From Acidimicrobiia bacterium (lineage in GTDB: Bacteria > Actinomycetota > Acidimicrobiia > IMCC26256 > PALSA-610), in contig DATBAK010000085.1 in NCBI GenBank assembly GCA_036271555.1, positions 1-64,000 of the forward strand: DNA of 64,000 nucleotides, written 5' to 3'. The first letter of the stretch is position 1. Each line of letters starts with the position of its first letter. The notes under the pieces were generated by a model. It was given only the letters and a program-made list of their open reading frames with translations, was not told where the DNA came from and searched no databases. The position numbers and the translations under genes were made by a program. This document shows, piece by piece, positions 38,818-41,976 of the stretch.

Positions 38818-38825
38818 GAACTTGC
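38818..38825 (+). repeat. Left 8-bp target-site duplication
   Basis: GAACTTGC, immediately outside the left inverted repeat of the IS1595-family element. An identical copy flanks the right end at 41969-41976. Confidence 0.88.
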
Positions 38826-38850
38826 GGCACCGACTTACTTGCCTCACCAG
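38826..38850 (+). repeat. Left terminal inverted repeat
   Basis: 25 bp, GGCAC start, core CGACTTACTT, CTCACCAG end. It differs from the reverse complement of the right repeat at positions 5, 16 and 17. Confidence 0.88.
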
Positions 38851-38889
38851 GCTACGAGCGGGATGTAGCTGACGATGCCTGACGTCAGT

Positions 38890-39708
38890 TCAGATTTCAG
38901 CCGCGAATATTCCGGTGAGCCCGAGAGGAAGGGCCTGGGCGGAGGGGGTCATCGCGGTCCGCGTTATGCGGATGAGATCCTCACGACCGACGCGCTGTCG
39001 CGGCGGCCAGGCGACGGTGCCGTCATGCTCTGGGTAGACGCGGGCGAGCGTGTCGAGGTGCTCTGCCGGGTGTGTCGCAATCTCGTCAGTTACGACGCGC
39101 TGATGCAGCACGAACATCGCAAGTTCGCTGAAGTAGAACATCGGGCTGCTCCAGTCGTACTCAAGCAGCGTCCGATCTGGCAGGTCCGCTGGCGCAAGGT
39201 GTCGTACGTGCTGCTCCGCCCATGGCATCTGCGCCACCCAGATGTACGTACCAGGCGGGGGCGGCTGCATGCCTCGCGGTTGACCGCCCTCGCGGAGCCA
39301 CTGCCAGAGGAACTGTGGGATCGGGAACTGCGCCGCGTGCGCGCGCAGGATCGAAGTCTTCAGGACCCAGCGCCCAACGGTTACCTGTTGCGCCGGGGTG
39401 AGGAACATGAGGCCGAGATCTGTCGGCTGGCACCGGATCATCGGCTTCATGAAGGCTGACGCCGCTTCCTCGAACTTCTTACCGAGCCGGCTGTTGCATG
39501 GCTTGCAGATGTGCAACAGCACGTTGAGCCCCTCAGGGCGCGGTCCGGTTGTACGACCGTTCCAGGTGTTCACGACGTCGAACTCGGGAACCTGACAGAC
39601 GGCCCACCATGGAATCACGTGCTCGGGTCGCAGCCACGCCTCCTGACCGCAGAGCGGGCACGTTCCCCACACGGGCGGCCCAGGTTTAGGTCGTCGACGC
39701 TGCCTCAC
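38890..39708 (-). CDS. HNH endonuclease carried by the transposon
   Basis: 272 residues. The N-terminal zinc-HNH module has C17-x2-C20 (CPLC), H30 in EHVIPWW, C68-x2-C71 (CKPCNSRLGKKFE) with the adjacent Asn. The remaining 190 residues are helical with many aromatic residues (FLWQWLREGG, YDWSSPMFYFSELAMFVLHQ) and match no family I recognise. It ends 39 bases from the left inverted repeat and lies 15 bases after the transposase stop on the same strand, so the two are probably one transcript. A role in cargo mobility or host DNA cutting is inferred. Confidence 0.75.
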   Translation of the reverse strand: MRQRRRPKPGPPVWGTCPLCGQEAWLRPEHVIPWWAVCQVPEFDVVNTWNGRTTGPRPEGLNVLLHICKPCNSRLGKKFEEAASAFMKPMIRCQPTDLGLMFLTPAQQVTVGRWVLKTSILRAHAAQFPIPQFLWQWLREGGQPRGMQPPPPGTYIWVAQMPWAEQHVRHLAPADLPDRTLLEYDWSSPMFYFSELAMFVLHQRVVTDEIATHPAEHLDTLARVYPEHDGTVAWPPRQRVGREDLIRITRTAMTPSAQALPLGLTGIFAAEI

Positions 39709-39723
39709 GCGTTCGCAAATCTC

Positions 39724-40725
39724 TCACGTCTCCGTTAGCTGCGCCCAGGTGAGACGACGACCAACTGACTGAGCGAGCGCCGTCTCGAACCGTTCCAGGT
39801 CGGTGCGCTCGCGCAGGTTGTACGCGAACGTGCGCTCGTCGACGTAGCGCGAGAGATGCTCGGGCGCGACCTGCACGTACGTGCCGTGGATGCTGCGCTT
39901 CAACAACGACCACAGATTCTCGACGCCGTTCGTGCTGATCGAACCGCGGACGTACTCACCCTTGCTGTGCGTGACCGTGGCGTGCTTGTAGCCGTCCCAC
40001 CGGAGGTAGAAGTAGGCGCTGGCCTCGTCGGTGTAGACCTGCGCTCCGGGATCGACGTTGGTGGTCACGAACCGCATGAGCGTCTTGCTCGTCCGGTCCG
40101 GGACGACGCGAGCGCGGGCCTTGCCGCCGCGCTGACGGGCTCCGACGACGATCGTTTTGCCGGCGCCTCCGATACTCGAACCCTTCGGTGGCCGCTTCGA
40201 CGCGTGCTTGTTATCGACCTTGCCGCCGATGAACGTCTCGTCTACTTCGATCGTGCCATCGAGCAGCTCGAACGTTCCGTCGCGCAGCGCCTCGCGGCAA
40301 CGGTGGAGAAGGTGCCTTGCGGACTTTTGTGTGATGCCGAGAGCGCGGGCAACCTCGTGGCTGCTGACGCCGTTCTTCGAGTTCGCGATCAGCCACAGGC
40401 CCGGCAGCCATTTGTCGAGCCCGAGCGGCGACTGCTCGAAGATCGTGCCCTTCTTGACCGAAAACTGCTTCTTGCAGTCCTTCGCCTTGCACTTCCACAC
40501 GCGACGGCTGGCGAGGTAGATGATCTCGGTGCCGCCGCAGGCGGGGCACACAGGGCCGTTCGGCCAGCGCAGCCGGGCCACGTACTCGATGCACACGTCC
40601 TCGTCCGAGAAGTACCGCACCGCTTCAATCAGGGTCCGGGGCTTGCGTGCCGACGTAGAATGGTCGGTGGAGACGACGGGGATCGAACCCGCTTGCCCTG
40701 GATGATTGGCCCGGGTGGCTTCCAT
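39724..40725 (-). CDS. IS1595-family (ISXO2-like) transposase
   Basis: 333 residues as an open frame from the ATG at 40725. Zinc ribbon C60-x2-C63..C79-x4-C84 (CPACGG, CKAKDC), then a helix-turn-helix (SSHEVARALGITQKSARHLLHRC) and a DDE domain with D162 (EVDETFIGGK), D233 (YTDEASAYFYL) and E269 (TNGVENLWSLLKR). The first ~20 residues would be read from a tRNA-like sequence, so translation may really begin downstream, for example at GTG 40620. The catalytic set is complete. Confidence 0.93.
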   Translation of the reverse strand: MEATRANHPGQAGSIPVVSTDHSTSARKPRTLIEAVRYFSDEDVCIEYVARLRWPNGPVCPACGGTEIIYLASRRVWKCKAKDCKKQFSVKKGTIFEQSPLGLDKWLPGLWLIANSKNGVSSHEVARALGITQKSARHLLHRCREALRDGTFELLDGTIEVDETFIGGKVDNKHASKRPPKGSSIGGAGKTIVVGARQRGGKARARVVPDRTSKTLMRFVTTNVDPGAQVYTDEASAYFYLRWDGYKHATVTHSKGEYVRGSISTNGVENLWSLLKRSIHGTYVQVAPEHLSRYVDERTFAYNLRERTDLERFETALAQSVGRRLTWAQLTET

Positions 40726-40737
40726 TGCCTCGTCCCC
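40668..40737 (-). ncRNA. tRNA-like sequence inside the transposon
   Basis: On the minus strand GGGGACG (5') pairs with CGTCTCC (3') as a 7-bp acceptor stem with a G3-U70 wobble, followed by discriminator A and CC. The T-arm is GCGGG-TTCGATC-CCCGT, a canonical loop. The D-arm is only GGC/GCC, and the anticodon stem CCCGG/CCAGG has one mismatch with a 9-base loop. At 70 nt it is not a standard tRNA. It could be a decayed tRNA or tmRNA end or a functional mimic. Confidence 0.4.
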
Positions 40738-40747
40738 TGTTTCACGG

Positions 40748-40771
40748 AGCCCCCGGGTGCAACCGGGGGCT
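40748..40771. terminator. GC-rich hairpin between transposase and divergent cargo genes
   Basis: AGCCCCCGG pairs with CCGGGGGCT around the loop GTGCAA, followed by TTCTTCATCTTC on the plus strand. It has terminator form on the plus strand, although no plus-strand gene lies just before it; it may instead insulate the element's promoter region from read-through. Confidence 0.5.
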
Positions 40772-40804
40772 TCTTCATCTTCAGTATACAGATGAGGAGA
40801 TAAA

Positions 40805-40853
40805 AGTCAACTCCGCATCTGAGGTTGACTCGGCATCTCGGCGTCTGTAACTT
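40805..40853 (+). promoter_or_regulatory. Promoter and operator-like inverted repeat of the cargo pair (leaderless)
   Basis: -35 TTGACT (40825-40830), 17-base spacer, -10 TAACTT (40848-40853). The predicted start, 7-8 bases on, is the ATG at 40861, so the mRNA is probably leaderless. The inverted repeat AGTCAAC (40805-40811) and GTTGACT (40824-40830) overlaps the -35, as an operator would. Confidence 0.55.
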
Positions 40854-40860
40854 AGCTGCC

Positions 40861-41652
40861 ATGACGCAGACGTGGGAAGACCACAAGCCGCGCAAGGGCC
40901 GCAGCCCGAGCTACCCCGGCATCAACCTGGAAACGGCGATCAGCCGAGCCCAGAAGCTCTACGCCGAGGAAGGCCGGAACGCCGCGCCGATGGGCGCGAT
41001 CACGGGGCATTGGGGCTACACCTCACCGAAGACGGGACCCGCCGCGGTGACGTACGCCGCGCTCAAGAAGTTTGGCTTGTTGGGCGAGAACGGCCGAGGC
41101 GACGAGCGCATGGGGAAGCTGACAGACCTGGCGCTCGACATCATCCTCAATCCGGACCAGTCGGCGCAGGCCCGCGCGATCCGTTCGGCTGCGCTGACGC
41201 CGCCGATTCACACCGAGCTTTGGGAGAAGCACAAGGAACACGGCCTGCCATCGGATGACTCGCTCCGGTACGAACTGGTACGCAACCGTGGATTCACCGA
41301 GAGTGGCGCAGCCGAGTTCATCCGCGAATTTCGGGACACAGTCTCCTTCGCTCAACTGACGCAAGCTGCTACGGTCGGGCCTGAAATCCCACCGAGCACT
41401 CCGCGCCTACCGGAGCAGAAGCCGCCATTGATGCCGCCCGCCACGCCGACTGTCGGCCGTTCGCTTCTCCTGCCGCTCCCTGGGGGCGGAAGCGCCACGA
41501 TAGAGACCACGCGTCCCGTCACCGAGGCGGAGTGGACGATGCTCGAAACGGTGCTCTCGACCATGAAGGCGAGCTTCATCGGCACTCCGGATGCGGCCCC
41601 CGTCGACGTTGTCGATCGCGGCGCGCTCGATCCCGACGACGAGGACGAGTGA
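40861..41652 (+). CDS. Transposon-borne protein of unknown function
   Basis: 263 residues from the ATG at 40861. The first 100 residues (AISRAQKLYAEEGRNAAPM, then GYTSPKTGPAAVTYAALKKFGLLGE) look like a winged-helix/repressor-like fold, and the acidic C-terminus ends DPDDEDE. A Pro-rich segment lies at about 185-205. No family recognised. It is coupled by a GTGA overlap to the next gene. It may bind DNA and regulate the element. Confidence 0.7.
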   Translation: MTQTWEDHKPRKGRSPSYPGINLETAISRAQKLYAEEGRNAAPMGAITGHWGYTSPKTGPAAVTYAALKKFGLLGENGRGDERMGKLTDLALDIILNPDQSAQARAIRSAALTPPIHTELWEKHKEHGLPSDDSLRYELVRNRGFTESGAAEFIREFRDTVSFAQLTQAATVGPEIPPSTPRLPEQKPPLMPPATPTVGRSLLLPLPGGGSATIETTRPVTEAEWTMLETVLSTMKASFIGTPDAAPVDVVDRGALDPDDEDE

Positions 41653-41936
41653 CCGATCACGATCCCGGCTCAGACGATGAGCCCGACGACGAGAACCCCG
41701 AATTCGACGCCTTCGAGGAACTGACGAAGCGGCTCGTCGAAGCGAAGCCGCGGTCCGATGGTTGGGTCGTCGTGGTCGATTGGGCTCGGCTGGCCGAGGC
41801 AGACGTTCTGTGGCAAGCGTGGCAGGACGCACACCTAGCCGAGGCCACTGCGCTCGATCCCAAGACGGACATACGCAAGGACGTCGGCCGGTTCGAAGGC
41901 GGCGACCAATGCCGCTACCTCATCCGCCGAGCCTGA
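41649..41936 (+). CDS. Small acidic transposon-borne protein
   Basis: 95 residues from the GTG at 41649 overlapping the upstream stop. An Asp/Glu-rich leader (PGSDDEPDDENPEFDAFEEL) precedes a short domain (GWVVVVDWARLAEADVLWQAWQ). It ends 7 bases before the right inverted repeat. No family recognised. The GTGA coupling suggests the two proteins act together, like a two-gene module. Confidence 0.65.
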   Translation: MTDHDPGSDDEPDDENPEFDAFEELTKRLVEAKPRSDGWVVVVDWARLAEADVLWQAWQDAHLAEATALDPKTDIRKDVGRFEGGDQCRYLIRRA

Positions 41937-41943
41937 TCCGCGG

Positions 41944-41968
41944 CTGGTGAGCGAAGTAAGTCGTTGCC
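41944..41968 (-). repeat. Right terminal inverted repeat
   Basis: The reverse complement begins GGCAA, then CGACTTACTT, and ends CTCACCAG; 22/25 match to the left repeat. Confidence 0.88.
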
Positions 41969-41976
41969 GAACTTGC
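41969..41976 (+). repeat. Right 8-bp target-site duplication
   Basis: GAACTTGC, identical to 38818-38825. Confidence 0.88.

Follow-up and report, generated by a model that had tools for sequence, protein, structure and literature searches.

Can the start of a transposase gene lie within a tRNA-like RNA, and what would such an arrangement mean for the element that carries it? This question is raised by a single 3,143-bp element at positions 38826-41968 of a 64,000-nt stretch of contig DATBAK010000085.1 from an Acidimicrobiia bacterium; the whole stretch is referred to here as the window. The element is a passenger transposon of the IS1595 family, and on its minus strand a 73-nt tRNA-like domain overlaps the transposase start codon, a feature that, like the hairpin 5′ of it, is absent from an earlier note on the same DNA. 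With its transposase start embedded in an alanine-type tRNA-like domain, the element is a new variant of the passenger IS1595 transposon.

The acceptor of the domain (GGGGACG at 40737-40731 with CGTCTCC at 40675-40669) is paired at all 7 of 7 positions, contains a G3:U70 pair and is followed by A73, after which the 3′ end reads CCG, where CCA is expected. The T-arm (40692-40676) has a perfect 5/5 T-stem, and 38 nt without a canonical anticodon arm join it to the acceptor. The host tRNA-Ala(UGC) has exactly the same acceptor, with G3:U70 and A73. Relative to the same tRNA, the T-stem carries a compensatory change (GTGGG/CCCAT to GCGGG/CCCGT), and the middle of the domain is no more similar to tRNA-Ala than shuffled sequence is (shuffle fractions 0.15-0.98). 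A tRNA-Ala cloverleaf with D-arm and anticodon arm was not found, as ARAGORN at its default settings reports no tRNA at the domain. The alanine-type acceptor with G3:U70 and A73, the T-arm and the missing anticodon arm are features of a transfer-messenger RNA (tmRNA); no mRNA-like domain with a tag reading frame is present in the 73 nt that make up the whole domain. The Rfam tmRNA model (RF00023) matches the domain with 32.3 bits (E 1.5e-10), below its gathering score of 47. Because this model also matches ordinary tRNAs in a genome-wide search of the host, the match alone does not indicate a tmRNA. An origin as a remnant of the host ssrA gene was rejected, since the acceptor of the host tmRNA (GGGGGTG/CACCTCC) differs.

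Close relatives have no leader: their transposase start codon comes 4-6 nt after the -10 box. In the window, the ATG found at this spacing from the TATACT -10 box begins a short open reading frame (ORF) that is out of frame, and a hairpin and the tRNA-like domain come next; the usable transposase ATG and its likely AGGGG ribosome-binding site lie inside the domain. The transposase body is homologous to its relatives from about residue 17-30 (most alignments begin at query residue 13-30), and the codons for the first ~28 residues fall in the tRNA-like region and at its 3′ edge. Judged from the sequence, the hairpin and tRNA-like cassette looks as if it had been inserted between the promoter and the transposase body. 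This promoter, TTGACT-16-TATACT, is the sole promoter-like site that a promoter scan found in the element (shuffle mean 0.4).

Transposase relatives (~30-60% identity) came from searches of the order, class, phylum and other collections. After removal of one spurious pair, the end-mapped set comprised 38 elements, the window included, each with both ends and a 7-8-bp duplication. A strict structural scan of 112 kb of elements gave three tRNA-like genes (window, L100 and L107) and none in 30 Markov shuffles; applied to 275 kb of flanks, it gave two ordinary tRNAs and nothing else. L100, a second IS1595 element, has the same anticodon-less layout in a different sequence (34.6 bits to the Rfam tmRNA model), with a strong inverted repeat or hairpin directly upstream, and thus shares with the window the acceptor type, the length and the upstream hairpin. 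The gene in L107 (6200-6289, plus strand) lies directly after the transposase and encodes a tRNA whose variable arm is long and whose anticodon is CCA. A further tRNA, with an anticodon loop that appears one base short, lies inside the IS1595-family element L008 (6189-6261, minus strand). A search of 325 genomes of the class gave three occurrences of the anticodon-less pattern: in the window, in L100 and at a site (G555 L155) that was discounted, as its T-stem is paired at only 3 of 5 positions and tRNA genes adjoin it. The domain as a general feature of the family was also rejected; the closest relatives are without it, and the anticodon-less form is found in 2 of the 38 elements.

A comparable message-less RNA is known from mycobacteriophage DS6A, whose tRNA-like-domain-only RNA is reported to inhibit tmRNA (PMC4131195, PMC11915505), and tmRNA without a coding sequence also occurs in Mallomonadaceae plastids (PMC4131195, PMC11915505). 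Like these, the window has a message-less tRNA-like domain of ~65-73 nt; that of the window has an alanine-type acceptor (G3:U70, A73), a T-arm and no canonical anticodon arm. Unlike the DS6A type, which was compared by its description, the window domain resides in a transposon and overlaps a protein start codon. In Carsonella, the smpB mRNA overlaps ssrA, and maturation of the tmRNA would cut the message (PMC4131195). The window resembles this case in that a coding message overlaps a tRNA-like RNA, and RNA maturation would therefore cut the message; the Carsonella genes are a host pair, whereas the gene in the window encodes a transposase. Finally, allo-tRNA-like sequences overlapping a transposon-related ORF have been reported in Edaphobacter (Mukai 2017, as relayed in PMC7609411). 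They share with the window an aberrant tRNA-like gene that overlaps a transposon-related protein and, in some allo-tRNAs, G3:U70. In allo-tRNAs an anticodon is present and the 12 bp of the acceptor branch are arranged as 8/4 or 9/3, whereas the window has 7/5 and no canonical anticodon arm.

Viral contigs provide a broader comparison. The anticodon-less pattern gave 91 stretches, many of them true 71-nt tRNA-Ala genes; of ~39 distinct viral sequences 61-70 nt long, most are message-less tmRNAs. A tmRNA-type D-loop is present in many of these, and a single short hairpin stands where the entire message domain would be. The window domain is without the D-loop signature (GG..TCGAY) seen in this set. 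In an alignment of 20 viral members, both partners vary at eight base pairs. With a second pattern, 46 distinct sequences were retrieved; the acceptor is fully paired in 45 of them and the T-stem in all 46. Since this pattern prescribes part of the acceptor, pairing there is informative only at the positions left free. Scored with a model of the viral message-less tmRNAs (R1), L100 reaches 35.4 bits, the window 29.2 and tRNA-Ala genes 27-33. Because L100, unlike the window, exceeds the tRNA-Ala genes, it may belong to the viral class.

Dozens of distinct viral contigs carry 61-74-nt message-less tmRNAs, with a tmRNA-type D-loop and one covarying hairpin where the message would be, for example at L164 4804-4866(+), L187 3833-3895(-), L170 3085-3146(-) and L166 1418-1487(+); in the literature searched, DS6A alone is described as a phage with a message-less tmRNA. 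Matches in Tunturiibacter and Pseudomonas phages were rejected as members, since they look like the 3′ piece of a permuted tmRNA instead. In Tunturiibacter phage Tunturi_4 (L248 1122-1535), such an unannotated tmRNA-like 3′ half lies ~30 nt downstream of a protein with an RF-1 domain, and the two are possibly a rescue-related pair.

The features of the element are collected in Table 1.

Table 1. Features of the IS1595-family element in the window, with the basis of each assignment.
Feature	Position	Strand	Basis
Left target-site duplication, GAACTTGC	38818-38825		sequence; single GCACTTGC in G050 L317
Left terminal inverted repeat	38826-38850	+	repeat search, end mapping
Predicted HNH-type nuclease, 272 aa	38890-39708	-	weak HNH_5 match and motifs in the sequence
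IS1595-family transposase, 333 aa	39724-40725	-	Pfam, NCBIfam
Possible leaderless upstream ORF, 49 codons (MKKPPVAPGG...), out of frame with the transposase; overlaps its start and the tRNA-like domain	40629-40778	-	ORF list and -10/ATG spacing in relatives
tRNA-like domain, 73 nt, no canonical anticodon arm	40665-40737	-	Rfam, shuffle test, host tRNA comparison
Strong, GC-rich hairpin preceding the tRNA-like domain on its 5′ side	40746-40773	-	repeat search, folding
sigma70-like promoter TTGACT-16-TATACT, serving the hairpin, tRNA-like domain, transposase and HNH gene	40783-40810	-	promoter scan
Proposed promoter TTGACT-17-TAACTT of U1-U2, divergent; U1 would be leaderless	40825-40853	+	read by eye; below promoter-tool threshold
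U1, 263 aa, family unknown; distant relative is cargo of L034	40861-41652	+	relative searches
U2, 95 aa, acidic N-terminus	41649-41936	+	ORF list, relative searches
Right terminal inverted repeat	41944-41968	-	repeat search, end mapping
Right target-site duplication, GAACTTGC	41969-41976		sequence

The earlier note had proposed an intact IS1595-family transposon with cargo, an ISXO2/IS1595 transposase, 25-bp inverted repeats and a perfect 8-bp target duplication, and all of these were borne out. The transposase matches DDE_Tnp_IS1595 (PF12762, 2.7e-41), an N-terminal Zn_ribbon_IS1595 (PF12760, 1.5e-14) and, above the cut-off, transpos_IS1595 (NF033547). The terminal inverted repeats match at 22 of 25 positions (26-nt arms, 88% complementary), start with GG and are flanked by the 8-bp duplication, as in the mapped relatives; a scan around the transposase for inverted repeats with an 8-bp duplication returned this pair only. 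From knowledge of the family, the DDE transposase would act on these 25-bp ends and leave the 8-bp duplication. The empty site that the note had suggested looking for exists in a genome of the same family (G050, locus L317), where the two flanks, once joined, find their match in a site without interruption (GACTTGCGGCACTTGCGGCAG versus GACTTGCGGAACTTGCGGGCAG) that has one GCACTTGC. The insertion is intergenic, ~33 bp upstream of a conserved gene and near a conserved TGTAATGATGTAATG motif, in sequence that is poorly conserved among relatives; the element is present once in its own genome. Taken together, it is probably an intact IS1595-family passenger transposon with two protein cargo modules. 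The DDE transposase, zinc ribbon, GG-starting ~25-bp inverted repeats, 8-bp duplication and passengers are shared with IS1595 insertion sequences and their passenger forms, from which it differs in its cargo (an HNH protein and the pair U1-U2) and in the tRNA-like domain fused to the transposase start.

Cargo as such is not what sets the element apart. The 38 end-mapped elements span 1.85-5.4 kb and are thus all longer than a bare insertion sequence of the family, and passenger genes are present in most of the ORF lists examined. Since restriction-modification and toxin-antitoxin cargo is common among them, passenger cargo is the norm in this lineage and its presence in the window is ordinary. 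Examples within the ends are a BglII endonuclease with a methyltransferase (L105), a methyltransferase with an Mrr-like domain (L106, L125), PemK/MazF (L120), Fic (L122), PIN (L093) and DUF5615/DUF433 (L133); HicA and SocA-like genes occur close to related transposases for which no ends could be located (L118, L123). L105 (3606-6401) and L106 (3718-6523) have a near-identical transposase and end segment and different cargo, as if the cargo had been swapped. The combination in the window, which had been suggested to be new, was not found in any other element or collection searched (order, class, phylum, plasmids, viruses). The viral scans gave no relatives of the transposase or the HNH protein, and the plasmid searches gave transposases below 60%, one U1 relative, one weak HNH relative and nothing more. 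A distant U1 relative adjoins, as cargo, the transposase of L034, which is ~57-59% identical to that of the window and belongs to one of the closest related elements. Whether the pair always travels with this transposase had been asked; because further U1 relatives are located away from any IS1595 transposase, U1 does not do so strictly. The cargo appears to fit the selfish-retention or defence pattern of the related elements, as a trio that is so far unique.

What the cargo does can be considered in this light. The HNH gene lies 15 nt downstream of the transposase gene on the same strand, as noted earlier, and is therefore probably co-transcribed with it, in the manner of an operon partner; U1 and U2 are divergent and, with a 4-nt overlap of U1 stop and U2 start, would be coupled in translation. 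U1 and U2 are without a match in Pfam, NCBIfam, PHROGs or PADLOC, which agrees with the earlier description of a coupled pair of no known family. By analogy with the cargo of related elements, defence or retention functions seem most likely. One specific form of this idea, in which HNH and U1-U2 are a single defence or addiction system, with the nuclease restrained by U1-U2 and carried as a retention module, would be in keeping with the frequency of restriction and toxin cargo and with the divergent arrangement. The -35 boxes of the divergent transposase and U1 promoters (40804-40830) are inverted copies of each other (AGTCAAC/GTTGACT), to which a regulator could bind. On the opposite side, none of the three proteins has a PADLOC match, no known toxin-antitoxin or defence component was matched in Pfam, NCBIfam, PHROGs or PADLOC, and no HNH homologue was found beside the U1 relatives in L037, L045 and L108. 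The nuclease assignment itself is weak: the C-x2-C, EHVIP and C-x2-CN motifs are visible by eye, and the HNH_5 match is below threshold (E 0.0013, 19.1 bits versus a gathering cut-off of 27.5). Single-sequence AlphaFold models (pLDDT 34 for HNH, 44 for U1) were too poor for use and were not interpreted. A single system of this kind is thus possible but doubtful. A homing-type role, in which the HNH protein biases inheritance of the element, had also been suggested; it has the HNH-like motif in its favor and nothing else, and is highly improbable for a single-copy element with its own DDE transposase, inverted repeats and 8-bp duplication at an intergenic, poorly conserved site.

For the tRNA-like domain, the most likely mechanism would be control at the RNA level. 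The acceptor 5′ strand holds the likely ribosome-binding site and the domain center the transposase ATG, so that folding and maturation of the domain by tRNA-processing enzymes would mask or cut the transposase message, and unfolding by ribosomes would allow the transposase to be made. Once released, the domain may in addition weaken trans-translation through competition for AlaRS or SmpB, by analogy with DS6A. This mechanism, including a possible anti-rescue role, is plausible but put forward tentatively, as less likely than not. A broader form of it is a rather unlikely extension: some transposons would resemble some phages in encoding message-less mimics of alanine tRNA, and here maturation of the mimic would destroy the transposase message and the released RNA would block host ribosome rescue, as a switch that links transposition to trans-translation. 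Several observations weigh against an RNA role. The unconstrained minimum free energy fold of the domain is slightly better than the tRNA-like fold (-29.0 versus -27.3), its R1 score is inside the tRNA-Ala range, not above it, the transposases of the closest relatives do without the domain, and the rare anticodon-less form is accompanied by two elements with more normal tRNAs, the tRNA-like features being at different positions relative to the transposase among elements. The serious rival is that this is an ordinary passenger IS1595 element in which a degenerate piece of a tRNA-Ala gene was picked up by chance, is now read as the first transposase codons and has no function as RNA. An acceptor identical to that of tRNA-Ala(UGC), a CCA end that reads CCG and a tmRNA model that also recognizes host tRNAs would all be explained by capture, as would the ATG and Shine-Dalgarno-like AGGGG inside the domain, through which it now serves as a coding leader. 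Decay, however, should break pairing at random, yet the acceptor and T-stem are perfect; the T-stem differs from the host tRNA-Ala by a compensatory change, the middle has no tRNA-Ala similarity, and L100 is a second case with the same acceptor type, length and upstream hairpin. Capture by chance is accordingly given a little less than an even chance.

At least four IS1595 elements carry a tRNA-like gene, though the family is usually annotated as plain insertion sequences, and many of those studied here carry restriction or toxin cargo. If the anticodon-less RNA of the window is made, it would represent a new way of coupling tRNA processing and ribosome rescue to expression of the transposase, and would extend the class of phage message-less tmRNAs to other mobile elements.

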